Shown piece by piece: positions 21,698-36,700 of a stretch of 64,000 bases of DNA. Below the pieces are notes generated by a model. The model was not told where the DNA came from. It worked only from the letters and a program-made list of their open reading frames with translations, and did not search any database. Origin of the DNA: Roseateles oligotrophus (lineage in GTDB: Bacteria; Pseudomonadota; Gammaproteobacteria; Burkholderiales; Burkholderiaceae_C); contig NZ_JACHLP010000001.1 of the NCBI RefSeq assembly GCF_014204525.1, forward strand, positions 248,001 to 312,000, read 5' to 3'. Position 1 is the stretch's first letter. The number at the start of each line of letters is the position of its first letter. The translations under genes were made by a program, and so were the position numbers.

Positions 21698-22078
21698 TCA
21701 GCCGCGCCCGCTGGCCACGATCTGCGCCCACTCGGCGTCCTCAAACAGGCGCGAGCGGGTCAGAAAGCGCTGGCCCGTCGGCCCTTCGAGCGAGAACATG
21801 CCGCCCCGCCCCTCCACCACATCGATGATGAGCTGGGTGTGGCGCCAGTACTCGAACTGCGACTCGCTGATGTAGAAGGGCATGCCGCCGATCTCGCCCA
21901 GATGGCGGTCGCCCGCCCCCACCAGCAGCTCGCCGGCGCCGTAGCACATGGGCGCGCTGCCGTCGCAGCAGCCGCCGGACTGGTGAAACATCAGCGGCCC
22001 ATGCTCACCCGCCAGCCGGGCAATCAAGGCCAGGGCGGCCGGGGTGGCCACGACCTGGGGAACATCATCGGTCGACAT
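21698..22078 (-). CDS. DUF779 protein, aldehyde dehydrogenase partner
   Basis: The 126-residue protein belongs to DUF779, recognised by MFHQSGGCCDGSAPMCYGAGE near residue 28 and GMPFYISESQFEYWRHTQLII. The CC and C residues look like a metal or redox site. DUF779 genes are regularly found next to ExaC/AldB-type aldehyde dehydrogenases, as here, where it follows the dehydrogenase gene by 14 bases. The biochemical role is not established. Start ATG at 22078; a longer in-frame upstream stretch belongs to the antisense of the aldehyde dehydrogenase end. Confidence 0.88.
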   Translation of the reverse strand: MSTDDVPQVVATPAALALIARLAGEHGPLMFHQSGGCCDGSAPMCYGAGELLVGAGDRHLGEIGGMPFYISESQFEYWRHTQLIIDVVEGRGGMFSLEGPTGQRFLTRSRLFEDAEWAQIVASGRG

Positions 22079-22092
22079 GGGCCCGCCCCGGT

Positions 22093-23613
22093 TCAGAAAA
22101 AGCCCAGCGCCTTGGGGTCGTAGCTGACCAGCAGATTCTTGGTCTGCTGATAGTGGTCCAGCATCATCTTGTGGTTCTCGCGGCCTATACCCGATTGCTT
22201 GTAACCGCCGAAAGCGGCATGGGCCGGATAGGCGTGGTAGCAATTGGTCCAGACCCGGCCGGCCTGGATATGGCGGCCCATGCGGAAGGCGGTATTCATA
22301 TCGCGGCTCCACACGCCGGCGCCCAGGCCGTAGAGCGTGTCGTTGGCAATCGCCAAGGCCTCCTCCTCGTCCTTGAAGGTGGTGACCGAGACCACCGGGC
22401 CGAAGATTTCCTCCTGGAAGATGCGCATCTTGTTATGGCCCTTGAAGACCGTGGGCTGGACGTAGAAACCGCCCTCCAGATCGCCCGCCAGCTGCTTGCG
22501 CGCACCGCCCGTCAGGCAGCTGGCGCCCTCCTGCTTGCCCAGGTCCAGATAGCTGAGGATCTTCTGCAACTGCTCGTTGGAGGCTTGCGCGCCAATCATG
22601 GTGCTCATGTCCAAGGGGTTGCCCTGCTTGATGGCGTTGACGCGCTTGATCGCACGCTCCATGAACTGCTCGTAAATGCTCTCCTGGATCAGGGCGCGCG
22701 AGGGGCAGGTGCAGACCTCGCCCTGGTTCAGCGCGAACATCGCAAAGCCTTCCAGCGCCTTGTCAAAAAACGCATCGTCCTTGGCCAGCACATCGGCGAA
22801 GAAGATATTGGGCGACTTGCCGCCTAACTCCAAGGTGACCGGGATCAGGTTCTGGCTGGCGTACTGCATGATCATGCGACCGGTGGTGGTCTCGCCGGTG
22901 AAGGCGATCTTGCCGATGCGCGGGCTGCTGGCCAGGGGCTTGCCGCATTCCAGGCCAAAGCCATTGACCACATTCAGCACGCCCGGCGGCAGCAGGTCGC
23001 CGATCAGCTCCATCAGCACCAGGATGGAGACCGGCGTCTGCTCGGCCGGCTTGAGCACCACGCAGTTGCCGGCGGCCAGGGCCGGGGCCAGCTTCCACAC
23101 CGCCATCAAGAGCGGGAAGTTCCAGGGAATGATCTGGCCCACCACGCCGATGGGCTCGTGGAAATGGTAGGCATAGGTGTTCTCGTCGATCTCGCTGATG
23201 CCGCCTTCCTGCGAGCGCACGCAGCCGGCGAAGTAACGGAAATGGTCGACGGCCAGGGGCAGGTCGGCCAGCGTGGTCTCACGGATGGGCTTGCCGTTGT
23301 CCCAGGTCTCGGCGGCGGCCAGCATGGGCAGGTTCTGCTCCATGCGGTCGGCGATTTTGTTGAGGATGTTGGCGCGCGTCGCCGGCGAGGTCTTGCCCCA
23401 GGCGGCCTTGGCGGCATGGGCGGCGTCCAGGGCGCGTTCGATGTCCTCGGCGCTGGAACGCGGGATCTCGCAGAAGGCGCGGCCGGTCACCGGCGTCACG
23501 TTCTCGAAGTAAAGGCCCTTGACGGGGGCCACCCACTCACCATTGATGTAATTGCCGTAGCGCTTCTTGAAAGCGACGGGGGTGCCAAATTTTCCGGGTT
23601 CGAGCATGTCCAT
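22093..23613 (-). CDS. exaC: NAD-dependent (acet)aldehyde dehydrogenase, ExaC/AcoD type
   Basis: The 506-residue cytosolic enzyme oxidises aldehydes to acids. Catalytic Cys301 lies in [13 protein letters not shown] and the general base Glu262 in [11 protein letters not shown]. The cofactor region includes [20 protein letters not shown] and [12 protein letters not shown]. The start ATG at 23613 ([20 protein letters not shown]) is typical for this subfamily; the longer upstream frame is rejected. It is the first gene of a two-gene unit with DUF779 and has a good sigma-54 promoter 72 bases upstream. In the island it should remove the aldehyde made by the periplasmic PQQ dehydrogenase. Confidence 0.93.
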
Positions 23614-23685: not shown

Positions 23686-23700
23686 GCAGCTTGCGTGCCA
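23686..23700 (-). promoter_or_regulatory. Sigma-54 promoter of the aldehyde dehydrogenase gene
   Basis: On the minus strand the sequence TGGCACGCAAGCTGCA matches the -24/-12 consensus TGGCACG-N4-TTGCA with one change in the -12 box. The GG and GC doublets have the required 10-base spacing. The predicted start of transcription is near 23675, leaving about 60 bases of leader. Confidence 0.82.
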
Positions 23701-23809
23701 GGTCTTGCCTCGGCCCACAAACCGCGGGCGCAGCGCCGCTGGCACGGGGTCGGCCAAGGGTTTACGCGGGCCAGGCCCGGCGGTTTGTTCCATTTATGAG
23801 CAAGCTTGA

Positions 23810-23824
23810 GCGCACGGTTCTTGC
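23810..23824 (+). promoter_or_regulatory. Weak sigma-54-like promoter before the SoxYZ-like gene
   Basis: GCGCACGGTTCTTGC has a perfect -12 box and CACG in the -24 box, but the TGG is degraded to GCG. If used, transcription would begin near 23836, only just before the AAGGAG ribosome site of the gene at 23854. A second poor match with intact TGGCACG lies at 23740 but lacks a -12 box. Confidence 0.35.
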
Positions 23825-23853
23825 TTCGCTGAACAGCAAGGAGAACAAGCCCC

Positions 23854-24636
23854 ATGCAAACACCCACCCTCATCCCCTGGCTGCTGAGCGCCCTGCTGGC
23901 CGGCGCACCACCGGCCGGGGCGGCCACTGCGGCCGAACGAGACCCCCTGGGCTCCATGCAATGGCCCGCCTTGCGCGACGAGTTCCTGGGCGCCAAGGCG
24001 AAGGTGGGCTTCGACCCGCGGGTGCAGGTCCACAGCCCGGCCTTTGCCGAGGATCCGATGAATGTGCCGGTCAGCGTGGAGGTGCAGGGCCTGGGCGAGG
24101 TGGAGCTGATCCTGGTGCTGGTGGACCGCAACCCCATACGCAAGGTGCTGGAGTTCTACCCCCTGGACGCCCTGCCCGCGCTGAGCTTTCGCTTCAAGCT
24201 GGAGCAGGCCAGCCCGGTGCGCGCGGCGGTGCGCACCCGCGACGGCCGCTGGCATGTGGGCAGCAGCTGGGTCGAGTCCGCCGGCGGCGGCTGCTCCGCC
24301 CCGGCCAGCAGCCGCAGCGACGGCAGCTGGGCCCAGCATTTGGGCCAGGTCAGCGCGCGCCGCTTCAGCGGCCTGGCCCAGCCCAGCGGCACCCGCCTGC
24401 GCCTGCGCGTCATGCACCCCATGGACACCGGCCTGGGCGGCGGCGTGCCGGCCTTCTACCTCAAGCAGCTGCAGCTCAAGAACGCCCAGGGCCGCACGCT
24501 GAGCCGGCTCAAGACCTTCGAGCCGGTCAGCGAGAACCCCATCTTCAGCTTCGACTTCGCCAGCCCCCTGGCCGGGGCCCTGCGGCTGCAGGGCAGCGAC
24601 AACAACGGCAACCGCATCGAAGGAGCGATTCCATGA
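23854..24636 (+). CDS. Quinoprotein dehydrogenase-associated SoxYZ-like carrier protein
   Basis: The 260-residue exported protein has a signal peptide (LLSALLAGAPPAGAATA). It fuses a SoxY-like domain (about residues 30-150) to a SoxZ-like domain (155-260). The SoxY part ends in ESAGGGCSAP with Cys147, equivalent to the C-terminal GGC swinging-arm cysteine of SoxY that carries sulfur intermediates. Such fusions form a family that occurs with PQQ dehydrogenases, where their cargo is unknown. The stop codon overlaps the start of the metallohydrolase-like gene (ATGA), the usual partner. An AAGGAG ribosome site precedes the ATG. Confidence 0.85.
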   Translation: MQTPTLIPWLLSALLAGAPPAGAATAAERDPLGSMQWPALRDEFLGAKAKVGFDPRVQVHSPAFAEDPMNVPVSVEVQGLGEVELILVLVDRNPIRKVLEFYPLDALPALSFRFKLEQASPVRAAVRTRDGRWHVGSSWVESAGGGCSAPASSRSDGSWAQHLGQVSARRFSGLAQPSGTRLRLRVMHPMDTGLGGGVPAFYLKQLQLKNAQGRTLSRLKTFEPVSENPIFSFDFASPLAGALRLQGSDNNGNRIEGAIP

Positions 24637-25589
24637 AGCCCGCCCTGCTGCTGGCCCTGACCCTGGCCCTGGCCACCCAGACCAGCCTGGCCGGCCCGGC
24701 CGCCGACCCCGCCACGCTGGACTACCGGCTGCAGGCCCGCGCCCTGGCGCCCGACGTCTATGTGGTGGAAGGCGCCAATGCCGACTTCCAGCTCGCCAAC
24801 GGCTGCAACATCATCAATACCGGCTTCATCGTCACCGAGGCCGGCGTGCTGGTGATCAATACCGGGCCCTCGCGCCGCTACGGCGAGCAGTTACGGGCGC
24901 TGATAGCGCGCACGACGACGCGGCCCCTGCTGCAGGTGCTGCTGCTCAACCAGCACCCCGACTACTTCCTCGGCAACCAGGCCTTTGCCGATGTGCCCCG
25001 TCTGGCCAGCGCCGCCACCCGCAGCGCGATGGCCGCCAACGCGGCCAGCTATGAGAGCAATCTCTACCGCCTCTGCGGCGACTGGATGAAGGGCACCGAG
25101 ACCTTGCTGCCCGACGGCCCCGTCCGGCCCGGCGTCCAGCAGCTGGGCGCCCATGAGATCGAGCTGCTGGAGCTGGACGGCCATACCGAGAGCGATCTGG
25201 TGCTGATCGATCGCAGCGCGGGCGTGGTCTTCGCCGGCGGGCTGGTCTTCAGCCAACGCGTGCCCACCACGCCACATGCCAGCCTGGCTCCGTGGCAAGC
25301 CGGCCTCAAGACCCTGGCCGCCCTGCCCTACCCCTGGTGGGTGCCCAGCCATGGCGGCGTGGACGCGGCGCGCGATGGGGCGGCCATCGCCATGACCCAG
25401 CGCTATCTGAGCTGGCTGGACCAGCGCTTTCGCAGCGCCGCCGAGCAAGGCCTGGACATGATGGAGCTGCTGCGCCAGCCCGTGCCCGAGGAATTCCGCC
25501 GCTGGGCCGCGTTCGAGACCGAGTACCTGCGCAATGTGGCCCATCTCTACCCGCGCTACGAGCAGGCGCAGCTCCTGAAAACCCCCTGA
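24633..25589 (+). CDS. Quinoprotein relay metallohydrolase-like protein (SoxH-related) with degraded metal site
   Basis: The 318-residue protein has a signal peptide ending near residue 20 (QTSLAG) and a metallo-beta-lactamase fold related to SoxH. The canonical HxHxDH motif reads NQHPDY here (residues 106-111), so two histidines are lost. GHTESD keeps its histidine, the GD of the next motif reads GG (FAGGLVF), and VPSHGGV keeps its histidine. A classic two-zinc hydrolase is therefore doubtful, and the protein may bind one metal or act structurally. It overlaps the SoxYZ-like gene by four bases and precedes the PQQ dehydrogenase by 190 bases. Confidence 0.8.
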   Translation: MKPALLLALTLALATQTSLAGPAADPATLDYRLQARALAPDVYVVEGANADFQLANGCNIINTGFIVTEAGVLVINTGPSRRYGEQLRALIARTTTRPLLQVLLLNQHPDYFLGNQAFADVPRLASAATRSAMAANAASYESNLYRLCGDWMKGTETLLPDGPVRPGVQQLGAHEIELLELDGHTESDLVLIDRSAGVVFAGGLVFSQRVPTTPHASLAPWQAGLKTLAALPYPWWVPSHGGVDAARDGAAIAMTQRYLSWLDQRFRSAAEQGLDMMELLRQPVPEEFRRWAAFETEYLRNVAHLYPRYEQAQLLKTP

Positions 25590-25704
25590 GGCTGGCGGCA
25601 GGCTGGAGCAAGCGGCGCGCTGCCGCTGTTCGAGGATGTAGCAATCGGAGGGCCGCTACCGGCCTGGCTGGGCGGTTTCGGCTCGATTTCCAGCGAGTTT
25701 TGGA

Positions 25705-25719
25705 TGGCACGTTTGTTGC
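25705..25719 (+). promoter_or_regulatory. Sigma-54 promoter of the PQQ alcohol dehydrogenase gene
   Basis: TGGCACGTTTGTTGC is a perfect match to the -24/-12 consensus TGGCACG-N4-TTGC. It starts 75 bases before the start codon, with a predicted transcription start near 25731. The rest of the 190-base gap holds a TGTTC half-site at about 25637 but nothing else I can assign. Confidence 0.9.
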
Positions 25720-25779
25720 GATCAGGCAGGCATCCGCGGGCAACCCGGACCCTTCCCCATCAAACCAACGGAGACCTCC

Positions 25780-27573
25780 ATGCGCATCCCCCCCGCCACC
25801 TTGCTGACGACCCGCCTGAGCCTGGCCTGCCTGGCCTGCTGTGGCAGCGCCCTGGCCGCCGGCGTCAGCGACCAGATGATCCAGGACTCGCCGCGCAGCG
25901 GCGCCAGCGTGCTGTCCTCGGGCCTGGGCACGCAAGGCCAGCGCTACTCCCCGCTCAAGCAGGTCAGCACGGCCAATGTGAGCCGCCTGGTGCCGGCCTG
26001 GGCCTTTTCCTTCGGCGGCGAGAAGCAGCGCGGCCAGGAGTCCCAGCCCCTGATCCATGAGGGCAAGATGTTCGTCACCGCCTCCTACTCGCGCATCTAC
26101 GCGCTGGACGCGGCCACCGGCAAAAAGCTGTGGAAGTACGAGCACCGCCTGCCCGAGGGCATCATGCCCTGCTGCGATGTGGTCAACCGCGGCGCCGCCC
26201 TGTTCGACAACCTGGTCATCTTCGCCACCCTGGACGCCCAGCTGGTGGCCCTGGACCAGGCCAGCGGCGAGGTGGTGTGGAAGGAAAAGATCGACGACTA
26301 CGCCGCCGGCTACTCCGCCACCGCCGCGCCCCTGATCGCCGGCGGCCTGCTGCTGACGGGTTTGTCGGGCGGCGAGTTCGGCGTGGTCGGCCGGGTCGAG
26401 GCGCGCGACCCACGCACCGGCCAGATGGTCTGGAGCCGTCCCACCGTCGAAGGCCATATGGGCTACCGCTACGACAAGGAGGGCAATAAAAGCGAGAACG
26501 GCATCTCCGGCACCACCAATAAGAGCTGGCCCGGCGACTTGTGGAAGACCGGCGGCTCCGCCACCTGGATGGGCGGCACCTACGACGCCAAGACCGGCCT
26601 GGCCTATTTCGGCACCGGCAACCCGGCGCCCTGGAACAGCCATCTGCGCCAGGGTGACAATCTGTTCTCCTGCAGCACCGTGGCCATCGACATCAAGACC
26701 GGCCAGATCAAATGGCATTACCAGGGCACGCCCAACGATGCCTGGGACTTCGACGGCGCGAATGAATTCATCACCTTCGATATGGACGGCAAGCGCCTGG
26801 GCGGCAAGGCCGACCGCAACGGCTTCTTCTACGTCAACGACGCCACAACCGGCGAGCTGAAGAACGCCTTCCCCTTTGTGCGCAAGCTCAGCTGGGCCAG
26901 CGGCGTGGACCTGAAGACCGGCCGACCCATGTTCATCAAAGAGAACCGCAGCGGCGACCCCACCGCCAGCAGCGACGGCAAAAAAGGCAGCTCGGTGTTC
27001 GCCGCGCCCGGTTTCCTGGGCGGCAAGAACCAGATGCCCATGGCCTACAGCCCCGATACAAAACTCTTTTACGTGCCCGCCAATGAATGGGGCATGGAGA
27101 TCTGGAACGAGCCCGTTACCTACAAAAAAGGCGCGGCCTATCTGGGCGCGGGCTTCACCATCAAGCCGCTCAATGAGGATTACATCGGCGCCCTGCGCGC
27201 CGTCGACCCCAAGACCGGCAAGATCGTCTGGGAGGTCAAGAACAACGCGCCGCTGTGGGGCGGCGTGCTGACCACGGCCGGCAATCTGGTCTTCTGGGGC
27301 ACGCCCGAGGGCTTTCTGAAGGCGGCCGACGCCAAGACCGGCAAGGTGGTCTGGGAATTCCAGACCGGCTCCGGCGTCGTCGCCCCGCCCGTCAGCTGGA
27401 TGCAGAACGGCGAGCAATACATCAGCGTGGTCTCGGGCTGGGGTGGTGCCGTGCCGCTATGGGGCGGCGACGTGGCCAAACGCGTCAACTTCCTGGAGCA
27501 AGGCGGCATGGTCTGGGTCTTCAAGCTGCCCAAGACCGGCGGCGGCAGCGCCAAGCTGGCCTCGGCCAAGTAA
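25780..27573 (+). CDS. PQQ-dependent alcohol dehydrogenase, predicted lanthanide type
   Basis: The 597-residue periplasmic quinoprotein has a signal peptide ([14 protein letters not shown]) and an eight-bladed propeller of methanol/ethanol dehydrogenase type, without a fused cytochrome domain. The vicinal disulfide that sits over PQQ is Cys131-Cys132 ([11 protein letters not shown]). The catalytic Asp is Asp323 in [11 protein letters not shown], and a second acid, Asp325, follows at +2. That Asp-X-Asp pattern marks lanthanide-dependent enzymes (XoxF, ExaF, PedH), while calcium enzymes usually have Ala or Ser at the second place. It oxidises primary alcohols and passes electrons to cytochrome c. 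A strong sigma-54 promoter precedes it, and a HiPIP gene follows by 35 bases. Confidence 0.92.
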
Positions 27574-27608
27574 CTCTCCACCTCAGCAGCCAAGACAAAG
27601 GACTCCCC

Positions 27609-27926
27609 ATGGAGCACAGCAAAATCTCGCGCCGTCAACTCCTGATCGCCCCGGCCGCCCTGGCCAGCAGCAGCCTGGCCCTGGCGCAAAACGGCCCGGC
27701 CCGGGTCGAGGAAGACAGCGAACAAGCCCAGGCCCTGGGCTATCGCCACGACACCCTCAAGGTCGACGCCAAGAAATACCCCAAGCACCAGGCCGCCCAG
27801 CATTGCGCCAACTGCACGTTCTGGCAGGGCAAGCCCAACGAGCCCTGGGCCGGCTGCGCCATGTTCGGCCGCAAGCAGATCGCCAATGCGGGCTGGTGCC
27901 AGGTGTGGGCCAAGCTGCCCGCCTAA
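27609..27926 (+). CDS. High-potential iron-sulfur protein (HiPIP), Tat-exported
   Basis: The 105-residue protein has a twin-arginine signal (KISRRQLLIAPAALASSSLA, cleavage near residue 26). The four [4Fe-4S] ligands are Cys66, Cys69, Cys83 and Cys97 (HCANCTFW, WAGCAMFG, AGWCQVW), with the spacing typical of HiPIPs. HiPIPs carry electrons in the periplasm at high potential. Its place 35 bases behind the PQQ dehydrogenase suggests that it accepts electrons from the enzyme or from cytochrome c-550, which is an inference. Confidence 0.92.
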   Translation: MEHSKISRRQLLIAPAALASSSLALAQNGPARVEEDSEQAQALGYRHDTLKVDAKKYPKHQAAQHCANCTFWQGKPNEPWAGCAMFGRKQIANAGWCQVWAKLPA

Positions 27927-27945
27927 GCCCTGGCCTTTGCCAAAA

Positions 27946-27971
27946 GCGCCCGGCATCCAAACCCCGGGCGC
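27946..27971. terminator. GC-rich hairpin between convergent genes
   Basis: GCGCCCGG and CCGGGCGC form a perfect 8-bp stem with a 10-base loop, 20 bases after the HiPIP stop and 16 bases before the end of the opposing TonB receptor gene. No T run follows on either strand, so termination is only likely. Confidence 0.4.
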
Positions 27972-27986
27972 CTACGCTTCAGTTCT

Positions 27987-30497
27987 TCACTCCGCAAACT
28001 CATAGCGCAAGCCCAGCCAAGCCGCGCGCGGCGCACCGGGGGCAAAAAAGGTGGCGTGGATCAGCGGGTAATCGCCGTTGGCATTGGCCGGCAGGGGCCG
28101 GGCGCGGTAATTGCCCTGGGCGTCGAAGGCATTGGCGCCCAGCTGGGCCGCCGTGCTGTAGCGGGTGTCGAACAGGTTCTTGATCTGCACAAAGAACTTG
28201 AGCCCGCTATGGGCCGGGCGGTAGTCCAGGCCCAGATTCAGCAAGGCATACCCCGCCGAACGGCCGGGGCCGGTGTAGAAGACGCCGTCGGGCCGGTGCT
28301 GGCCGTTTTCGTTGCCGCGTGCCGTGGCGCCAGCGCTGGCCTGCAGGTCCAGGCCCAGATTCCACTGCGGGCTGACGCGCCAATCCAGCGTCAGCTTGAG
28401 CTGCTGGCGCGGCAGCAGGGGGATGCGGTCGCCCGGGCGGATCTGGATCACGCCCTCCAGGCCGGGCAGGCCGGCCTGGGCACTCTCGTTGCTGCTATTG
28501 CCCGTGCCGCCGACCTGCTCGGCGCTTTGGTAGGTAGCGTCCAGCAGGCTCAGATTGGCGCCCAGGCGCAGATCCCGGTGGGCCTGCCACTGCAGACTGG
28601 CCTCCAGGCCCTGGCGGCGGGTCAGGCCGAAGTTGCGGAAGTAGCCGAAGCCGCTGCTGTTGTCGGCCACAAAGAGCAGATCGTCGTGGTTATCGGCCCG
28701 GAAGGCGCCCAGATGCCAGTCCAGACCGGCCCAGCGACCTCTTGCTCCCAACTCCCAGCTGTGGGTGATGACCTGGCGCAGCGGCGGGTCACCGGCCATG
28801 GCATTGGGCAGCTTGCAGGGGCTGGCCGGGTCGGCACAGCCCAGCTCCACCGAGGTGGGCGCACGCGCGCCCTGGCTGGCGCTGGCGTAGAGCTGGAGCG
28901 CGGGCGAAAGCGCATGCGTCAGGCCCAGGCCGGGGTTGAAGTGGCTGAACACATGCTCGCCGTCCAGCGAGCCCGTGCCGCCGCCCGGCCTGATCTGGTC
29001 GCGGTTGCTGATTGCCGCACGGTTGTAGCGGCCCGACAGCGTCAGCAGCGTGGCCGGGCTCAGGCTCAGCGCGCTGCTGGCGAAGAGGCTGGCCGTGTGG
29101 CCGCGGCTGCGCAGATCGACGCGGGCGTCAAAGGCATCCTCCGAATTCTGGCTGCCGTCGGCAAAGGCGCCGGGGCCTTCAAGACCGCTGACCGTGCGAT
29201 CCGGATTGATGAAGCCGAACTGCGTGCTCTGCTGGAAATCGACCCGGCTCCAGTCCAGGGCCGCGCCCAGCAGCCACTGCGATTTCAGCCCCGCCCACTG
29301 CGACTCGCCGGCCAGCTGCGCGCCCAGGCCGGCATGCTGCTGCAGGCTGTGTGTGCGGTTGAGCAGGCCGTTGCATTTCTCGTTGGGTTCCTCGTTGAGC
29401 AAGACATTGGCAATGCAGCGCCAGCGCGGGAAAGGCGTGTTGGCGGCATTCGCACCCGCGGCCGGGTAGCCGCTATAGCCGGCCGCGGCCAGGGCCTCGC
29501 GCTCCTCCGCATTGGGTTGGTAGACGGACTGGCCCAGCGCTTCCTCGTTGATATCGCCGTTCAGCGTGTCCGTCGAAATACGGCGGTAGAACAGATTGCC
29601 GCTGAGCCGCATGCCGCCGGCCAGGCCTTGGTTCAGCTCCAGATTGAGCAGCTGGGCCCGGTTGCGAGTGGTATCGGGCGCCGTGTAGATGCTGCGCCAG
29701 TCGCGCGCCAGCGCACCCTGCTCCTGCAGGCCGTTGCCGCTCAGCTCGTTGCCGGCCAAGGCCAGGGCGAGGCGCAGCTCGGCCGCGCCCACACGGCCGC
29801 CCAGCTTGGCGAAGAGCTGGCTCTGGTCCGAGGGCGAGGCCGCCCGCCAGCCCTGCTCGTGCAGGCGCTTAGCCGTGACAAACCAATGCCGTTGCGGGCT
29901 GCCGCCGCCGCTCTCGAATTCAAGCAGCACCCGCCGGTGGCTGCCGCCGCTGAGCTGCAGGGCGCTGCCCGGGCTGCTCAGGCCGGTCTTGGTCTGCAGG
30001 GCCAGCGCGCCACCCAGGGTGTTGAGACCAAACAGCGGGTTGCTGCCCGGCATCAGCACGGCCTGCTCGATGGCGCTGCTGGGGATCAGATCCCAGCTCA
30101 CGACATCGCCAAAGGGCTGGTTCAGGCGCACACCGTCCAGATAGACCGACAGGCCTTGCGGCGTGCCCAGCAGGGGCGAGGCGCTGAAGCCGCGGTAGTT
30201 CAGATCGGCCTGCAGCGGATTGCCCTGGGCCTCGTTCAGGCTGACGCTGGCCAGGTTGCGGGCCAGATAGTCCGGCAGGTCCAGGGCCTGGCGGCGCTGC
30301 AGATCGGCCGCGCCCAGGCTTTGCACCAGGCCGGGCATCTGCTCGCGCGCCAGCGCGCTGCCGCGCAGCGGCGAGCTGCTGATCACCTCCACCCGCGGCA
30401 GCTGGGTGGGCTCGGCCCGGGCCGTGCCGGCGCAGAGCAGGCTCAGGGCGGCGGCCAGCCAGGCCGGCGGCAGGGGCTGGGAACTAGGGCTGTACAT
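27987..30497 (-). CDS. TonB-dependent outer membrane receptor, ligand unknown
   Basis: The 836-residue protein has a signal peptide (PAWLAAALSLLCAGTARA), an N-terminal plug domain (about residues 35-165, with LVQSLGAADLQRRQALDLPD and SVYLDGVRLNQPFGDVVSWD) and a long beta-barrel ending YEFAE. It starts at ATG 30497, with GAGGAG seven bases upstream; an in-frame extension to 30539 is rejected. It lies 42 bases behind the PqqB-like gene on the same strand, so the two are probably one unit. In a lanthanide-type PQQ locus a receptor for a metal chelate is an attractive idea, but nothing in the sequence proves it. Confidence 0.87.
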   Translation of the reverse strand: MYSPSSQPLPPAWLAAALSLLCAGTARAEPTQLPRVEVISSSPLRGSALAREQMPGLVQSLGAADLQRRQALDLPDYLARNLASVSLNEAQGNPLQADLNYRGFSASPLLGTPQGLSVYLDGVRLNQPFGDVVSWDLIPSSAIEQAVLMPGSNPLFGLNTLGGALALQTKTGLSSPGSALQLSGGSHRRVLLEFESGGGSPQRHWFVTAKRLHEQGWRAASPSDQSQLFAKLGGRVGAAELRLALALAGNELSGNGLQEQGALARDWRSIYTAPDTTRNRAQLLNLELNQGLAGGMRLSGNLFYRRISTDTLNGDINEEALGQSVYQPNAEEREALAAAGYSGYPAAGANAANTPFPRWRCIANVLLNEEPNEKCNGLLNRTHSLQQHAGLGAQLAGESQWAGLKSQWLLGAALDWSRVDFQQSTQFGFINPDRTVSGLEGPGAFADGSQNSEDAFDARVDLRSRGHTASLFASSALSLSPATLLTLSGRYNRAAISNRDQIRPGGGTGSLDGEHVFSHFNPGLGLTHALSPALQLYASASQGARAPTSVELGCADPASPCKLPNAMAGDPPLRQVITHSWELGARGRWAGLDWHLGAFRADNHDDLLFVADNSSGFGYFRNFGLTRRQGLEASLQWQAHRDLRLGANLSLLDATYQSAEQVGGTGNSSNESAQAGLPGLEGVIQIRPGDRIPLLPRQQLKLTLDWRVSPQWNLGLDLQASAGATARGNENGQHRPDGVFYTGPGRSAGYALLNLGLDYRPAHSGLKFFVQIKNLFDTRYSTAAQLGANAFDAQGNYRARPLPANANGDYPLIHATFFAPGAPRAAWLGLRYEFAE

Positions 30498-30539
30498 GGT
30501 CGTTCTCCTCGAATTGTTTGATGGGCTGACTCGGGGCAC

Positions 30540-31295
30540 TCACAGCTCGATCACCATGCCCTCATAAGCCAGCTCGGCATGAGCCGGCACACCCGCATCC
30601 TGCGGGCCGAGCAGGATGCGGCGACCCGCGGCTTGCTGCGGGCCGGCCTGGGCGTCCAGCAGCCAGCAGTCCGCCGGCTGGGCCCAGAACAGGCCGCAGG
30701 CCTCGGCATCCAGCTCGGCCAGGGGCTCGGGGCCAGGACCGGCGGCGTCGAAGGCCGTGCCGGCCAGGGCGGGGGCAAACACCAGGCATTGGCCGCTGCG
30801 ACCGTCCTCCACCCGCAGGGCGATGTGGTCACCGACCCGCGGCTCGCGCCGCCGCGCATGGGAGGGCCGCAGCCCCGGCACGGCCTGGGCCTCGAAGCGC
30901 AGGCCCTCGAAGCCGGGGATGCTGAAGCCGGCGCTGCGCTCACAACCTGCCACCGGCAAGGGGTGCCAGTGCACGGCGCAATACGGCTCCAGCATGGGCA
31001 GCAGGGGCAGGCCCTCGGTCAGGTCCTCGAACACCAGGGGCGTGGCATAGACCTCCAGCGGCCTGTGCTCGCGCAGGCTCAGCAAACCCAGCACGCTTTG
31101 CAGCTGGGCGTCCAGCAGCAGCAGGGCCTGGATGGCGCCGCCGGCCTGCAGCGCGGGATGGGCGCGCAGCTGATGGGCGATGTCGGGCGAGGCATTGATC
31201 AACAGCCAGGCGCGGCCGTCGAGCGACAAGGCCACCGAACCCTGACGCGCCGGCCGGCCCCCGCAAGCCCCCGACCCCAGCACCAGGATCTTCAT
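30540..31295 (-). CDS. PqqB-like protein lacking metal-binding residues
   Basis: The 251-residue protein resembles PqqB of PQQ biosynthesis. It opens MKILVLGSGACGGRP and continues with LLINASPDIAHQLRAHPALQ, then GLLSLREHRPLEVYATPLVF and LPLLPMLEPYCAVHWHPL, all aligned with PqqB blocks. PqqB is normally about 300 residues; the Cys-rich WNCNCPNC segment is absent, and the DAEIDH metal motif reads DAQLQS. A catalytic role is unlikely. There is no signal peptide, so it is cytoplasmic. It precedes a TonB receptor gene in the same direction. A role in handling imported PQQ is only a hypothesis. The ATG at 31295 is preferred over the upstream frame start. Confidence 0.75.
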   Translation of the reverse strand: MKILVLGSGACGGRPARQGSVALSLDGRAWLLINASPDIAHQLRAHPALQAGGAIQALLLLDAQLQSVLGLLSLREHRPLEVYATPLVFEDLTEGLPLLPMLEPYCAVHWHPLPVAGCERSAGFSIPGFEGLRFEAQAVPGLRPSHARRREPRVGDHIALRVEDGRSGQCLVFAPALAGTAFDAAGPGPEPLAELDAEACGLFWAQPADCWLLDAQAGPQQAAGRRILLGPQDAGVPAHAELAYEGMVIEL

Positions 31296-31388
31296 GGCCC
31301 GGCCCCGCCGCCGCGCCGAGGCGGCAGGATATTTGCTTGCGGCCAGGGCCGGCGCCCCTGCCTCCACCCTGTCTTGAAAGTGCTTCTC

Positions 31389-32492
31389 ATGCCCCAGCTA
31401 ACGCAATATCCATGCCGCAGGCCTGCAAACGCGAAACCAGGCACAGGCAAGGTCGAACCCTGCGCCAGGCTGCAACGCTTTTGCTGCAGTCTGGAGCAGG
31501 CGCTGTCAGGGCTGCTACTGCTCGCCGCCTGCGTGCTGGGCCTGGGCGCGGCGCCCCCTGTCTCGGCGCAGGAGGCCGCCCCCGCTTGCGCCGCCGAGGC
31601 GGCAAGCTGGCCACCGCTGCTGCCGGTGGCCCCCGGCCTGTGGCGGATCGCGGCCGCCCGCGGCGAGCCCGATGCCGGCAACGGCGGCTTGACCAGCCAG
31701 CTCTTCGTGGCCGAAGACGGCACGGCCCAGGCAAGCCTGTGGCTGGTCGGCAGCGGCCCCACGCCGGCCTTTGCCGCCCGCCTGGCCTGCGCCCTGCAGG
31801 CCCGCTTCGGCCGGCTGCCCGGCGATGTCATCAACAGCCGGGCCACGCCCGAGCTGGCCATGGGCAATATCGCCTTCGAGCCGGCCCGCATCTGGGCCCT
31901 GCCCGAGGTGATGGCCTTGATGAACAAGCGCTGCCAGCTGTGCCAGGACAAGCTGCGCGCCAAGCTGGGGCCGGTGGCGGGGGCCAGCCTGCTGCCGGCC
32001 ATCATCCGCACGCCCACCCAGGCCGTGCAGGCGGCCGAGCTGGGGCCTTTCGAGTGGCTGAATCTGGACCGCGGCATGGGCGAGCATGTGCTGGTCTTGC
32101 GCCACCGGGCCAGCGCCACGGTGCTGGCCCAGGGCCTGCTGTGGGCCGGCGATGTGCCCGATCTGCTGAAGAGCCGCAGCGATCTGATGCTGGCCGCCCT
32201 GCGCACATTGCAAGGCTTTGCGGGCCCGGCCCTGCTGCTGGGCGAGCAAGGTGAACCCGGCCAGGCGGCGGGTGAAGGGCCGGGCAGCCTGGCCGGCCAT
32301 ATCGACTACATCGAACAGCTGCGGGCCCGGGTCTGGGCCCAGCTGAGCGCGGGCCGGGCGCTCGATGTGCAAGACCCCGCGCTGGCCCTGCCGGCCTTTG
32401 CCGCCCTGCCCGGCTACGCCCTGCGCCACCCGCTCAATCTGCAGCAGCTGTGGAAGGAGCTGGAGCCCCTGCTGTTCCAGCCCAAGCCTTGA
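31389..32492 (+). CDS. Exported SoxH-like protein with strongly degraded metallo-beta-lactamase motifs
   Basis: About 367 residues from ATG 31389. A hydrophobic export segment (SGLLLLAACVLGLGAAPPV) lies at about residues 40-58, after an unusually long basic N terminus, so the true start may be further downstream. The body aligns with quinoprotein-relay metallohydrolases (VAPGLWRIAA, GDVINSRATPELAMGNIAFE), but HxHxDH reads RATPEL, and the last His motif reads LLGEQGE. Only the GD-like Asp (WAGDVPDL) is retained. A CQLC pair near residue 180 could bind metal or heme, or form a disulfide. Function unknown. It diverges from the PqqB-like gene. Confidence 0.65.
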   Translation: MPQLTQYPCRRPANAKPGTGKVEPCARLQRFCCSLEQALSGLLLLAACVLGLGAAPPVSAQEAAPACAAEAASWPPLLPVAPGLWRIAAARGEPDAGNGGLTSQLFVAEDGTAQASLWLVGSGPTPAFAARLACALQARFGRLPGDVINSRATPELAMGNIAFEPARIWALPEVMALMNKRCQLCQDKLRAKLGPVAGASLLPAIIRTPTQAVQAAELGPFEWLNLDRGMGEHVLVLRHRASATVLAQGLLWAGDVPDLLKSRSDLMLAALRTLQGFAGPALLLGEQGEPGQAAGEGPGSLAGHIDYIEQLRARVWAQLSAGRALDVQDPALALPAFAALPGYALRHPLNLQQLWKELEPLLFQPKP

Positions 32493-32550
32493 TTCCTGAT
32501 CTGCCACCCCCAAGTCCTGCCCTCCAAAACGATTGTTTCGAGGGGGTTGC

Positions 32551-33033
32551 ATGGCGGAGACGCTCTGGTGGGTCTTGAGTATTGGCTTGATCGGCCTGGG
32601 CCTGCTCGGCACGGTGCTGCCGGCCTTGCCGGGCACGGCCCTGGTGCTGGGCGGCATCGTGCTCGGCGCCTGGGTGGGCGACTTCCAGCAGGTGGGCGGC
32701 TGGAGCCTGGCCTTGATCACGGCCCTGGCCGTGCTGGCCTGGGTGCTGGACTATGTGGCCGGGCTCCTGGGTGCGCGCAAGGCCGGTGCCAGCAAGCAGG
32801 CGATCGCTGGGGCCGCTTTGGGCACGTTGGCGGGCCTGTTCATGGGCCTGGTCGGCGTGTTCTTCATGCCCCTGCTGGGCGCGGCCCTGGGCGAATACCT
32901 GGCCCGCAAGGACGAGGCGCGGGCGCTCAAGGTCGGTCTGGCCACCTGGCTGGGCATCATGGTGGGCCTGATCGCCAAGGTGGTGCTGGCCTTCATGATG
33001 ATTGGCGTGTTCGTGATTGCCTTGCTGGTTTAG
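32551..33033 (+). CDS. DUF456 family small membrane protein
   Basis: The 160-residue protein is mostly hydrophobic with about four to five helices and a glycine-rich DUF456 core (GLGLLGTVLPALPGTALVLG, then ALGTLAGLFMGLVGVFFMPL and LGAALGEYLARKDEARALKV). Its biochemical function is unknown. ATG 32551 has a GAGGGGG ribosome site. It sits 58 bases after the SoxH-like gene and overlaps the end of the sigma-54 activator gene by four bases, tail to tail. Confidence 0.85.
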   Translation: MAETLWWVLSIGLIGLGLLGTVLPALPGTALVLGGIVLGAWVGDFQQVGGWSLALITALAVLAWVLDYVAGLLGARKAGASKQAIAGAALGTLAGLFMGLVGVFFMPLLGAALGEYLARKDEARALKVGLATWLGIMVGLIAKVVLAFMMIGVFVIALLV

Positions 33034-35111
33034 CCCTCGGCCGGCCCGGCGTTCCAGTGCAGCTTGCGGTAAATCGTGTTGCGGCTGATACCCAACTGCT
33101 TGGAGGCGGCCGAGATATTGCCACCGACGGCCGCCAGGGCGGCGCGGATCATCTCGATCTCGGCCTGCTCCAGGGTCTGGCCCAGGCTGGCCTCCTGGCT
33201 CAACGGGATGCGGCTGGCGCGCATGGCGGCCTCGGCCTGCTGCAGCGAGGCAGCGGGCGGCTCCGCAGCGACCGCCGGCAATTCCTGCACGGGCATGACG
33301 GCCACGGACGCCGGCTGAGGCCTGGCGGCGGCGGCGCGGCCCAGGCTGGCCGCGGCGTCCTCCAGGAAATCGTCGGACAGATGGGCGGGGGTGATCTGGG
33401 CCTCGCCGGCCGACATCACCGCCGCCGTGCGCAAGACATTGGCGAGTTGGCGGATATTGCCGGGCCAGTGATAACTGGCAAACAGCGCGGCCACCGGCGG
33501 GCTCAGCGTGGGCGCGTCCTGCGGGCGCTCGGCCAGCAGGATGCGGCGCACGATGGCGTCCAGATCGCTGCGTTCCCGCAGGGCCGGGATGCGCACGGCC
33601 AGGCCGTTCAAGCGGTAGTACAGGTCTTCACGGAAGCTCTGGGCGGCAATCATCTCGCGCAGATTGCGGTGGGTGGCACAGAACACCGCGATGTCCACCG
33701 GGATGGACTTGGCCGAGCCCAGCGGCGTGACGCTGCGCTCCTGCAGCACGCGCAGCAGCCGCGCCTGCAGGGGCAGAGGCATATCGCCGATCTCGTCCAG
33801 GAAGAGCGTGCCGCCATTGGCCTGCAGGATGCGGCCGCTGGCGCCCTTGCGGCGCGCGCCGGTGAAGGCGCCGTCCTCGTAGCCGAACAGCTCGGCCTCG
33901 ATCAGGCTCTCGGGGATGGAGGCGCAGTTGACGGCCACAAAGGGCTGGCGCGCCCGCTTGGAATCGACATGCACGGCGCGCGCCAGCAATTCCTTGCCGG
34001 TGCCGGTCTCGCCGAGGATGAGCAGGGGGATGTCGCGGTCCAGCACGCGCTGGATTTTCTGCACCAGGGTATCGACCTGGGCGTCGCCGGTGCGCAGGTA
34101 TTGCAGGCCCGAGAGCTTGGCCGCCGGCGCCGGGCCGGCGGCCTCGGCCTGCGGCTTGACCGGAGCGGCCGGGGCCGGCTCGGTGTCCAGCAGGCCCAGG
34201 CCCGCCACCACGGGGCGGGAGGGCCAGTCGAAGCGGGCCGTGACGTAAAAGCTCTGCCCGCTGGCCAGACTCAGCCGCATCGGGGCCGACAAAGGCATGC
34301 GGAAATGGTCGTAGACGGCGGCCGTGCTGGTGCCCAGCAGGCTGGTCAGGGTCTGGGCACGCAGGGCCGCGCCGCTCAGGCCCAAGAGGTCGAGGGCGCC
34401 GCGGTTGGCGCCCAGCAGCTTGCCGTCGGGGCCCACGACCAGAATGCCCTCCAGCAAGGTGCCGATGAACTCGGCCCGGCTGTGGAAGTGCAGGCGCAGG
34501 CGATTGTTGTAGTCGTCGCTGAGCCAGTGGTTCTCAATCATCCGGGCCGACATGCGCACCAGGCCCATGGTGTGCTGGTGGTAGCTGCGGTGGTCGCCCG
34601 TCACGTCCAGCACGCCCAGCATATTGCCGCGCGGGTCGAAGATGGGCGCGGCCGAGCAGGTCAGGAAGTTGTTGGCATGCATGAAGTGCTCGGGCCCATG
34701 GATCAGGGTGGGCGAGCCCTCGAACAAGGCCGTGCCGATGGCGTTCGTGCCCCTGGAATGCTCGGCCCAGTTGGCGCCCGGCGCCAAGGCCACCTTGTCG
34801 GCGCGGGCCAGGAAATCGTCGTCCCCCACCGAGTGAAGAATGGTGCCGGCGGCATCGGTCAGCACGATCATGCTTTCGGTATTGACGATCTGCTCGAACA
34901 GCATGTGCATCACCGGCGCGGCATGCAGATAGAGGCGCTGGTTGCGCTCGCGTGCCAGATTGAGGTCGCTGCGCACCATGGGTTCGAGCTCGCGCTGTTC
35001 GCTGCGCGACAGGCCCAGGCCGCTGCTGCGCTGGTGCGAGCGCTCGATGAACTCGGCGCGCGGCAGCACGGCGGCCAGCCCGAGCGCGGGATTGGAAGTC
35101 GTAGACATCAT
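33030..35111 (-). CDS. Sigma-54-dependent transcriptional activator, AcoR type (GAF / PAS / AAA+ / Fis)
   Basis: About 693 residues. A GAF-type sensor domain (about residues 60-205, with MIVLTDAAGTILHSVGDDDF and GTNAIGTALFEG as in AcoR) is followed by a PAS-like segment (215-300). The AAA+ domain has Walker A GETGTGKE at 367-374 and the sigma-54 contact loop GAFTGA at 414-419. A Fis-type helix-turn-helix ends the protein (AVGGNISAASKQLGISRNTI). AcoR relatives control acetoin, alcohol and aldehyde genes. Three -24/-12 promoters in this island make it the likely local activator. ATG 35111 has a GAGGAAG site. Confidence 0.92.
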   Translation of the reverse strand: MMSTTSNPALGLAAVLPRAEFIERSHQRSSGLGLSRSEQRELEPMVRSDLNLARERNQRLYLHAAPVMHMLFEQIVNTESMIVLTDAAGTILHSVGDDDFLARADKVALAPGANWAEHSRGTNAIGTALFEGSPTLIHGPEHFMHANNFLTCSAAPIFDPRGNMLGVLDVTGDHRSYHQHTMGLVRMSARMIENHWLSDDYNNRLRLHFHSRAEFIGTLLEGILVVGPDGKLLGANRGALDLLGLSGAALRAQTLTSLLGTSTAAVYDHFRMPLSAPMRLSLASGQSFYVTARFDWPSRPVVAGLGLLDTEPAPAAPVKPQAEAAGPAPAAKLSGLQYLRTGDAQVDTLVQKIQRVLDRDIPLLILGETGTGKELLARAVHVDSKRARQPFVAVNCASIPESLIEAELFGYEDGAFTGARRKGASGRILQANGGTLFLDEIGDMPLPLQARLLRVLQERSVTPLGSAKSIPVDIAVFCATHRNLREMIAAQSFREDLYYRLNGLAVRIPALRERSDLDAIVRRILLAERPQDAPTLSPPVAALFASYHWPGNIRQLANVLRTAAVMSAGEAQITPAHLSDDFLEDAAASLGRAAAARPQPASVAVMPVQELPAVAAEPPAASLQQAEAAMRASRIPLSQEASLGQTLEQAEIEMIRAALAAVGGNISAASKQLGISRNTIYRKLHWNAGPAEG

Positions 35112-35250
35112 GGTCTTCCTCAGAGTTTTGTTGTGTGCCGCCCCCTGAACAGCGGGTGCGGCTTGCCTCTCGCGGCCTGAACCGGCATCGGGCTTCAGGC
35201 TCTGTCCTCTTTTGAGTTCCCACCCTGATGCTGCGGGCTGGAGCAAAGCT

Positions 35251-35295
35251 TGTCCATGGAACATTCCCCAGCTTGATCTGTGTCAGTCTGGAACA
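35251..35295. promoter_or_regulatory. Candidate activator-binding sites upstream of the cytochrome c-550 promoter
   Basis: Two similar interrupted palindromes lie between the divergent activator and cytochrome genes: TGTCCATGGAACA (35251-35263) and TGTCAGTCTGGAACA (35281-35295). The half-site ATGGAACA recurs as TGTTCCAT at 23786-23793, about 90 bases upstream of the aldehyde dehydrogenase -24 box. They could be enhancer sites for the neighbouring activator. Confidence 0.45.
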
Positions 35296-35304
35296 GCCCT
35301 CGTG

Positions 35305-35320
35305 TGGCATGGTCCTTGCA
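35305..35320 (+). promoter_or_regulatory. Sigma-54 promoter of the cytochrome c-550 operon
   Basis: TGGCATGGTCCTTGCA matches TGGCACG-N4-TTGCA with one mismatch and correct GG-to-GC spacing. Transcription would start near 35331, about 39 bases before the cytochrome start codon. The remainder of the 258-base gap holds the candidate activator sites. Confidence 0.85.
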
Positions 35321-35369
35321 CAAGCGGCGGGTGTCAGCTTTCCCCCAACCCTTCCAAGCGGAGACCCCC

Positions 35370-35873
35370 ATGCACAAGCCTGCCCCCATCCATTCCTCGC
35401 GCCGCGGCTGGGCGCCCGGCATCGCCCTGGCCCTGCTGCTGGCCAGCGCGGGGGCCTGGAGCCATGGCGACGTCACGCCCCAGGTGGTGGACACCAGCGG
35501 CCTGCCGCGCCTGGGCGAGGGCTGGCGCAATCAAAACCCCTACCGTGCCAACGAGGCCGCCATCAAGGTCGGCAACTCGGCCTACGGCCAGAACTGCGCC
35601 CGCTGCCACGGGCTGGACGCCATCTCGGGCGGCATCGCCCCGGATCTGCGCAAGCTGGACAACGACTGCAGCGCCCTCAAGGACGCCAAGCGCCGCGAGG
35701 CCTGCGTCAAGGACAACGACGAGTACTTTCTGAGCACCGTGCGCCATGGCCGCAGCCGCAATGGCGCGGTCTATATGCCGCCTTTTGAGAGCACCTTCGA
35801 CCAGGAGGCGATCTGGGCCATCAAGAGCTATCTGGAAAGCCGCCGCGAAAAAGCCCTGCAGGTGACGCCATGA
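35370..35873 (+). CDS. pedF: Cytochrome c-550, PedF type
   Basis: The 167-residue exported monoheme cytochrome has a signal peptide (GIALALLLASAGAWSHG). The heme motif is Cys76-X2-Cys79-His80 (NCARCHG), and the likely axial Met is Met136 in VYMPPFES. The C-terminal FDQEAIWAIKSYLESRREK matches the PedF family, the electron acceptor of PQQ ethanol dehydrogenases in Pseudomonas. It starts at ATG 35370 behind a sigma-54 promoter and overlaps the binding-protein gene by four bases. Confidence 0.9.
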   Translation: MHKPAPIHSSRRGWAPGIALALLLASAGAWSHGDVTPQVVDTSGLPRLGEGWRNQNPYRANEAAIKVGNSAYGQNCARCHGLDAISGGIAPDLRKLDNDCSALKDAKRREACVKDNDEYFLSTVRHGRSRNGAVYMPPFESTFDQEAIWAIKSYLESRREKALQVTP

Positions 35874-36700
35874 GCATAGACCGCCGCACTCTGCTGGCCG
35901 CCCTGGCCACGGGCTGGGCCAGCGGCGCCCAAGCCAATGCCGCCACCGGCATGGACAAGCTGCGCGCCCGCGGCAGCCTGCGGGTGGGCATCTACCAGGA
36001 CATGCCGCCCTTCCACGTCAAGGGCCGGGGCATCGATGTGGATCTGGCCCAGGCCCTGGCCCAGGCCTTGGGCCTGCGGCTGGAGCTGCTGCCCTTCCAT
36101 GCCGACGAGAATATGAACGACGATCTGCGCAATATGGTCTGGAAGGGCCATTACCTGGGCTATGGCCCGGCCGATGTGCTGATGCATGTGCCGGTGGACA
36201 AGCCCTTGATGGACGCCACGCCCCAGGCCCTGATCTTCGCGCCCTATTACCGCGAGCGCATCGTGCTGGCGCGCCGGCTCGCCCGCCTGCCCCGGCTGGA
36301 GCAGCTGTCCCAGCTGGGCGGCGAGACGGTGGCCGTGCCGGGCCAGAGCCTGGCCGGCTGGCTGCTGCTGGGCGCAGACGGCGGCGCCTACCAGAACCAG
36401 CTCAACACCCACTGGAAGAACGGGGCCGAATGCGCCCAGGCCTTGCTGCGCGGCGAGTTCGCCGCCGCCGCGGGCCTGGCCTCGGAGCTGGAGTCGGTGC
36501 TGCGCGGCCAGGCCGGCTTCGCCATCGAGCCCCTGCCCCTGCCGCGCGCCCCGCGCCAGGGCTGGGCCACCGGCCTGGCCGTCAAGAAGGACGCCGTCGA
36601 ACTGGCCCAGGCCCTGCAATACGCCGTCAACACCCTGGCCGCCGATGGCGGGCTGGGCCGCATCTTTGAAACCCATCACCTGAGCTGGCAAACCCCATGA
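35870..36700 (+). CDS. Quinoprotein-associated periplasmic substrate-binding protein (XoxJ/MxaJ-like)
   Basis: The 276-residue protein has a short export signal (SIDRRTLLAALATGWASGAQA) and a type 2 periplasmic binding fold: LRVGIYQDMPPFHVKGRGID, LAQALAQALGLRLELLPF and a second lobe starting GGETVAVPGQSLAGW. Proteins of this family accompany PQQ dehydrogenases (XoxJ, MxaJ) and are thought to help their maturation rather than feed an ABC transporter; no permease gene is nearby. It overlaps both the cytochrome gene before it and the receptor gene after it by four bases each, so the three are translationally coupled. Confidence 0.85.
   Translation: MSIDRRTLLAALATGWASGAQANAATGMDKLRARGSLRVGIYQDMPPFHVKGRGIDVDLAQALAQALGLRLELLPFHADENMNDDLRNMVWKGHYLGYGPADVLMHVPVDKPLMDATPQALIFAPYYRERIVLARRLARLPRLEQLSQLGGETVAVPGQSLAGWLLLGADGGAYQNQLNTHWKNGAECAQALLRGEFAAAAGLASELESVLRGQAGFAIEPLPLPRAPRQGWATGLAVKKDAVELAQALQYAVNTLAADGGLGRIFETHHLSWQTP

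Follow-up and report, generated by a model that had tools for sequence, protein, structure and literature searches.

Does a single sensor switch on a whole chain of alcohol oxidation together with the supply of its cofactor? This question is raised by a stretch of 64,000 nucleotides from Roseateles oligotrophus (assembly GCF_014204525.1, contig NZ_JACHLP010000001.1, positions 248,001 to 312,000; in the following the window, with coordinates counted from its first letter). Here, genes for an aldehyde dehydrogenase, a pyrroloquinoline quinone (PQQ)-dependent alcohol dehydrogenase and a cytochrome c-550 lie close to the gene of an AcoR-type sigma-54 activator. A sequence-only reading of this DNA had placed -24/-12 promoters before these three genes and suggested that one sensor coordinates alcohol oxidation. 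Our analysis supports and extends this view: as judged from the sequence, we assign a probability of about 0.85 to the reading that one AcoR-type activator switches on four sigma-54 promoters within an island of about 17 kb. The fourth promoter, the genes for PQQ uptake and an unusual repeat beside the promoter of the cytochrome gene pedF are additions to the regulon as first proposed.

Promoters and inverted repeats in the window

The three -24/-12 sites could be read directly where they had been placed: P1 of the aldehyde dehydrogenase gene exaC (TGGCACGCAAGCTGC, 23686-23700, minus strand, predicted +1 at about 23674), P2 of the PQQ dehydrogenase gene (TGGCACGTTTGTTGC, 25705-25719, plus strand, predicted +1 at about 25731) and P3 of pedF (TGGCATGGTCCTTGC, 35305-35319, plus strand, predicted +1 at about 35331). 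For the third site the start was correct, and the proposed end at 35320 is one base too long. The count of three has to be corrected, since a fourth unit had been missed: P4 of a PqqB-like gene (CGGCATGGATATTGC, 31403-31417, minus strand, predicted +1 at about 31391). It was revealed because the regions upstream of PqqB-like genes scored high in the conservation test described below. For all +1 positions the C of the -12 GC was taken as -12. The sites show the features of sigma-54 promoters, with GG at -24, GC at -12, a fixed spacing and conservation among homologues.

Pattern counts in the window alone are not above chance and prove nothing on promoters. At up to two mismatches there were 47 matches for an expectation of 43.0; when R was required at position 7 and no more than one mismatch allowed, there were 7 for an expectation of 5.2. 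That the sites go beyond chance is concluded from their conservation in relatives and from the pairing of enhancer and promoter. The genome scan that the sequence-only reading had asked for gave 14 exact matches to TGGCAYRN4TTGC versus 2 for the reversed control pattern.

A palindrome search by expectation maximisation (EM) in the 220 bases before the promoters returned TGTTCCA-N3-TGGAACA with a log-likelihood of 202, versus 24-30 in six letter shuffles. The input consisted of 37 upstream regions (35 target promoters and two of CytB), which are not independent, as homologous promoters are among them and some divergent pairs share one repeat. Scored in sample with the EM matrix, a repeat of at least 12 bits is found in 31 of the 35 target regions and in neither of the two CytB regions.

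The window and the three island relatives closest to it (L046, L047 and L057) were excluded from a second, held-out matrix, which was built from 24 sequences. This matrix ranks the four promoter repeats of the window 1, 2, 3 and 5. The best-scoring site of the window is the proximal repeat of P3 (TGTGTCAGTCTGGAACA, 35279-35295), centred at about -44. It is followed by the repeat of P1 (TGCTCATAAATGGAACA, 23786-23802, centre about -120) and that of P2 (TGTTCGAGGATGTAGCA, 25627-25643, centre about -96, score 15.0), while the repeat of P4, on the minus strand (TGCTCCAGACTGCAGCA, 31482-31498, centre about -99, score 14.5), comes fifth. Rank 4, at 17753, is not at a known promoter, and rank 6 is a second repeat of P3 (TGCTGCGGGCTGGAGCA, 35229-35245, centre about -94, score 12.7). 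The P1 repeat lies about two helical turns farther out than those of the other promoters. A common inverted repeat is thus present upstream of all four promoters, and each of the three promoters proposed initially carries a member of this family upstream of its -24 element. The shared regulon is supported because the repeat was found without using the DNA-binding domain of the activator, and because it recurs beside AcoR-type activators in distant genomes, although not beside all of them.

The two elements were combined in a joint scan, which demanded a -24/-12 score of 14 or higher and, no more than 220 bases upstream of that site, a repeat scoring 12 bits or higher. Exactly four such pairs exist in the window, namely at the promoters of exaC, the dehydrogenase, pedF and the PqqB-like gene. 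In 300 dinucleotide shuffles the mean was 0.10 and the maximum three pairs, so that none reached four.

Throughout the genome, the repeat occurs with up to two mismatches at 47 places, versus 14 for a reversed control. When all 47 were checked for a -24/-12 site within 250 bases, only island promoters reached at least 14; here the dehydrogenase site fell at the edge of its locus and is assigned from the joint scan. The best score outside the island was 13.7, as at C1:213823, where the GG is broken and the place lies inside an open frame. Three enhancer-like places whose surroundings were examined (L105, L070 and L068) were rejected as further targets, since each falls within an open frame or at its end. 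Within the reach of the repeat pattern, the regulon looks local to the island.

Conservation of the two elements

For the conservation test, genes were mapped and upstream regions scored in 20 stretches around activator homologues from relatives. The -24/-12 score is a hand-made weight table built on the consensus of such promoters; among 5000 windows drawn at random from these loci, 3.4% score 14.2 or more. Genes with less than 100 bases upstream were dropped, and the rows for MBL2, Mtase and DUF779 left out. A score of at least 14 was obtained for 35 of 37 target regions versus 7 of 70 regions belonging to ten further gene groups in these stretches. All 11 exaC homologues are among the former (14.2 or more), as are all eight dehydrogenase homologues, one of them only 35% identical, and all seven homologues of PqqB or the PqqB-like protein (14.4 or more). 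For pedF it was 9 of 11, the two misses being second copies of 38-41% identity. The control groups gave 0/5 for the high-potential iron-sulphur protein (HiPIP), 0/5 for TonB1, 1/7 for TonB2, 2/23 for the activator, 0/7 for the binding protein, 1/6 for YVTN, 2/6 for CytB and 0/2 for DUF456; upstream of SoxYZ (1/4) and SoxH (0/5) no convincing conserved sigma-54 promoter was found.

Activator and dehydrogenase also tend to occur together. Among 17 relatives from the genus, three hold close matches to both (E <= 1e-100), one fragmentary genome has the activator only, and none the dehydrogenase only.

Both elements were then looked for in 36 named loci among the matches listed (80) and in 23 loci of relatives. 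Plasmid pVarWS11_2 of Variovorax sp. WS11 carries them at four of four units (exaC, dehydrogenase, pedF and pqq genes, the fourth before pqqA), and Piscinibacter at both units with readable upstream regions. These two loci are outside the training set of the matrix. For PedH-like dehydrogenases (at least 50% identity, readable upstream region) both elements were found in 11 of 12 loci, six of the 12 promoters being already part of the conservation set, and for unlinked dehydrogenases of at most 44% identity in none of 12. Of single further loci, L255 (the Variovorax dehydrogenase again) has both elements and L262 the -24/-12 site only; at a Stutzerimonas dehydrogenase of 40% identity (L263) the promoter scores 15.0 and the repeat 11.3, just below the threshold. 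The repeat is perfect in a Bacillus locus that combines an AcoR-type gene with an aldehyde dehydrogenase gene; in part of the AcoR-type activator family it is therefore probably ancient.

We also asked if pedH of Pseudomonas shares this wiring. Eight named genomes were searched, five of which have a dehydrogenase match; of 11 loci taken into this test, L264 and L265 were dropped. Both elements are absent upstream of three of three pedH-like and three of three pedE-like genes of Pseudomonas and Stutzerimonas, a naming that follows from identity (64-65% and 54%, respectively). Because six of six orthologue upstream regions are without both elements, the wiring of the island differs from the Pseudomonas paradigm.

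Activator and proposed target genes

The activator gene (33030-35111, minus strand) is divergent from P3, as had been proposed. Its product combines a GAF domain (PF01590), an AAA+ domain (PF00158, 223.8 bits) and a C-terminal Fis-type helix-turn-helix (HTH; PF02954, residues 646-684), and the GAFTGA loop is exact (residues 414-419). The start codon is uncertain: the coordinates given begin with the ATG at 35111, and the frame is open as far as an ATG at 35264. The N-terminal GAF domain and the linkage to an aldehyde dehydrogenase gene, exaC in the island and also beside many homologues, identify it as AcoR-type. This protein alone matches over the whole activator at E <= 1e-100 in the genome, which has one match for rpoN and 14 matches, 11 of them strong, for the sigma-54 activator domain.

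Transcribed from P1 would be exaC (22093-23613, minus strand), an acetaldehyde dehydrogenase gene according to NCBIfam (NF050026, 964.5 bits, cut-off 900). It is followed on the same strand by a DUF779 gene (21701-22054), an arrangement that is conserved in many relatives. The stretch from exaC to the dehydrogenase gene (23854-25589) holds genes for a SoxYZ-like carrier and a zinc metallohydrolase, both of quinoprotein relay families.

P2 precedes the PQQ-dependent alcohol dehydrogenase (25780-27573, plus strand), which belongs to the methanol/ethanol family of PQQ dehydrogenases (TIGR03075). Its best full-length solved relatives are 6zcv and 6zcw (E 2.6e-247), which we take to be PedH. Lanthanide-type enzymes have an Asp two residues after the catalytic Asp. 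The motif WDFDG is the same as in 6zcw, whereas 1flg, which we take to be the calcium-type ExaA, has WDFSG; since Asp stands where ExaA has Ser, the sequence suggests a lanthanide enzyme. The HiPIP gene (27570-27926, plus strand, PF01355) has an uncertain start codon; if translation begins at the GTG at 27570, its first bases are shared with the last of the dehydrogenase gene, and it is probably part of the P2 transcript.

The pedF run begins with pedF itself (35370-35873, plus strand, TIGR04494, 197.4 bits, cut-off 122). A periplasmic solute-binding protein follows (35870-36700, plus strand, PF00497), for which there are weak NCBIfam matches only, one of them to the MoxJ-like TIGR03871. The third gene (TonB2, 36697-38847, plus strand) encodes a PqqU-like PQQ importer.

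P4 stands before a PqqB-like metallohydrolase gene (30540-31295, minus strand). The protein is related to solved PqqB, and is here called PqqB-like only, as its 138 bits for TIGR02108 are below the cut-off of 245 for biosynthetic PqqB. The next gene on this strand is that of a TonB-dependent receptor (TonB1, 27987-30539, minus strand, PF00593 and PF07715), weakly similar to PqqU (E 5e-16). In two relatives several genes intervene between PqqB-like and TonB1 genes (L057:9599-13692 and L047:8822-11401). Among those of L057 are a LuxR-type two-component pair and a MotA/ExbB match that stays below threshold. In the window, no such gene lies between the two. Divergent from P4 is a gene (31419-32492) whose product weakly resembles quinoprotein relay metallohydrolase 1 (36.7 bits, cut-off 300); a possible start of this gene overlaps the P4 enhancer.

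Promoters, repeats, their linkage and conservation, and the families of the proteins are read from the sequence; from these data we infer binding of the activator to the repeats, dependence on sigma-54 (rpoN), the extent of the operons and the signal. The GAF domain would sense an alcohol or its aldehyde, probably, whereupon the activator would oligomerise on the TGTTCCA-N3-TGGAACA repeats, centred about 94 to 120 bases upstream of the four promoters, and remodel the sigma-54 polymerase there. P1 would then yield acetaldehyde dehydrogenase ExaC; P2 the PedH-like, probably lanthanide-type alcohol dehydrogenase; P3 cytochrome PedF, the binding protein and the PqqU-like importer; and P4 the PqqB-like protein and the second TonB receptor. 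The alcohol-oxidising enzyme, its aldehyde-removing partner, the electron carrier and PQQ uptake would appear together. Thus enzyme, electron carrier and PQQ supply would be tied to one switch.

PQQ supply

The PqqU-like protein is homologous to the solved PQQ transporter 9c4o over its full length (E 1e-188, residues 32-716). NF041535 is by far its best model, at 776.2 bits versus a cut-off of 1200; it is therefore named PqqU-like only. The genome has pqqC and pqqE elsewhere, with pqqA before them. This pqq operon was tried as a fifth target and rejected: no -24/-12 site follows the palindrome (TGTGCCAATCTGGCACA) that stands 29 bases upstream of the probable start of pqqA. The palindrome (G000:C2:25772-25788, in L250, G000:C2:24500-30500) adjoins, as judged by eye, a divergent sensor-kinase-like gene.

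At E <= 1e-40, pqqC was present in four of 11 relatives searched and not found in seven. Since six of these seven carry a dehydrogenase of at least 53% identity, these six may live on imported PQQ. A real pqqA, with pqqC nearby, follows the fourth -24/-12 site at a distance of 126 bases in L055, 79 in L167 and 98 in L053; no good repeat was found at this unit in L053. Because the site precedes pqqA there, the fourth promoter slot, as read from these arrangements, serves PQQ supply in different ways across genomes.

The promoter-proximal repeat of pedF

Enhancers of sigma-54 activators are normally located farther upstream than about -44, where the proximal pedF repeat is centred. In seven of eight pedF promoters of the close clade (the window, L046, L047, L057, L059, L167 and L168, with L048 as the one without this spacing), 8-9 bases separate the end of this repeat from the -24 element. 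In four more distant pedF promoters the best repeat is not at that spacing. L057 also has a weaker repeat (10.8) at the place of the second pedF repeat, at about -94.

As to its function, the proximal repeat could be a governor, a contact site or an operator for the activator gene on the other strand. Beside the polymerase site it could set the level of pedF or tie pedF to the control of that gene. One explanation would have it act as an operator only, repressing the activator gene (autoregulation) without any action on pedF. Such a function would suit both its position between the two divergent genes, 168 bases before the ATG at 35111, and its score, the highest of any site in the window. However, the spacing to the -24 element of pedF, fixed at 8-9 bases in the clade, argues for a role at pedF, and no sigma-70-like site for the activator gene was found at 35050-35420. 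We consider a pure operator unlikely. The two roles are compatible, moreover, and this explanation covers one element, not the regulon. The island in any case offers a natural promoter set with an enhancer-type site near -44, in which one may ask how close to the sigma-54 polymerase such a site can be.

Alternative explanations

Several observations weigh against control of the four promoters by the one activator. The promoters of the relatives are homologous, so that the counts are not independent. Earlier scores were already known when the thresholds of 14 and 12 were chosen, and the P4 pair is near them (14.4 and 14.5). On their own, the repeats of P2 (15.0) and P4 (14.5) score much like the top site of shuffled windows (mean 14.8, 20 shuffles), and for this reason it is the pairing, not the single repeat, that counts. 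P1 has CTGC in place of TTGC and an imperfect repeat, and the P4 repeat overlaps the open frame of the divergent gene. Among the targets in relatives, no repeat of at least 12 bits was found for exaC of L055, L062 and L064 and pqqB of L053 (4 of 35). The named loci have both elements at 8 of 16 exaC, three of five pedF and two of three PqqB genes. The Pseudoduganella dehydrogenase (L169) has neither; there exaC, DUF779 and the dehydrogenase gene stand head to tail, and the exception is perhaps due to the dehydrogenase following exaC on one strand. The palindrome at pqqA, lacking a -24/-12 site, indicates that the repeat may be read by other proteins too. Finally, ten further full sigma-54 activators are encoded in the genome, of which six were covered when HTH regions were compared.

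These further activators lead to an explanation in which the promoters are sigma-54-dependent but their true partner is another activator or an added LuxR-type response regulator, comparable to exaA of Azospirillum. The LuxR-type pair between the PqqB-like and TonB1 genes of L057 would fit as well. In the window, these two genes are direct neighbours, and no two-component genes separate them. The repeat is also found again beside AcoR-type activators of distant genomes, among them the Bacillus pair, in which it is perfect. We regard a different partner as very improbable. Equally improbable is that the -24/-12 matches are due to chance or to unrelated activators, with ordinary promoters running the island and the activator controlling exaC only, a role that AcoR-type proteins beside exaC may have in many genomes: the pattern alone is indeed not enriched in the window, and eight 20-kb activator stretches (L051, L054, L056, L058, L060, L062, L064 and L065) contain exaC but neither dehydrogenase nor pedF, yet the -24/-12 sites are kept before PQQ dehydrogenase, pedF and PqqB genes in relatives, and joint pairs occur at exactly four places in the window.

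Control of all four promoters by the AcoR-type activator is thus the reading we prefer. The proposed regulon is compact and fully specified by four promoters, an enhancer consensus, the activator and a spacing rule, and it offers a candidate biosensor for alcohols or aldehydes.

A wider reading is offered tentatively and has, in our judgement, somewhat less than an even chance. Burkholderiales would have wired lanthanide-type alcohol oxidation to enhancer-dependent sigma-54 control, which replaces the LuxR-type control of Pseudomonas, and would have included cofactor supply in the regulon. The fourth slot would hold PQQ synthesis (pqqA onward) in some genomes and the PqqB-like protein plus TonB receptor in others, and the fixed-spacing repeat abutting the pedF promoter would be a governor or direct contact site rather than a remote enhancer.

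Comparison with known systems

Among the top listings of a literature search, mostly the starts of abstracts, no paper on an AcoR-type regulon over a PQQ alcohol dehydrogenase and PQQ uptake was found. The parts are known. In the portions of the literature searched, we met neither their combination nor a PedH-like system with PQQ uptake that is wired to an AcoR-type activator.

In what we take to be an AcoR-type acetoin/acetaldehyde system, acoR/acoD of Cupriavidus, and in AcoR systems generally, a GAF-AAA+-Fis HTH protein with GAFTGA is linked to an aldehyde dehydrogenase with a -24/-12 promoter, as in the island. AcoR-acoABCL of Clostridium appears as a sigma-54 activator system of this type in Table 1 of PMC6615313. 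The island differs from these systems in its targets, a periplasmic PQQ alcohol-oxidation chain and PQQ uptake distributed over four promoters.

With regard to PQQ transport, the third gene of the pedF run is homologous to the solved transporter over its full length, like PqqU, but the importer of the island stands behind a sigma-54 promoter together with oxidation genes. Synteny of PqqU with the pqq operon is generally absent, four Burkholderiales genomes excepted (PMC12124388).

Similar in mode of transcription is exaA of Azospirillum brasilense, a sigma-54-dependent PQQ alcohol dehydrogenase gene like that of the island. Its partner is a LuxR-type regulator (Singh 2017, as cited in PMC6115532), whereas that of the island would be an AcoR-type enhancer-binding protein. 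In PMC6115532 itself, from 2018, the lanthanide-dependent activator of Pseudomonas pedH is still called unknown.

Similar in gene content are the ped/exa systems of Pseudomonas. As described in the main text of a review (PMC12997753), in which the terms 'RpoN' and 'AcoR' are both absent, they share with the island a PQQ alcohol dehydrogenase, PedF, a binding protein, an aldehyde dehydrogenase and a control linked to PQQ supply. Their regulators, AgmR and PedR2, are of the LuxR type (PMC12997753). The comparison suggests that the same PedH-type enzyme has been wired to different regulators in Pseudomonas and in Burkholderiales.

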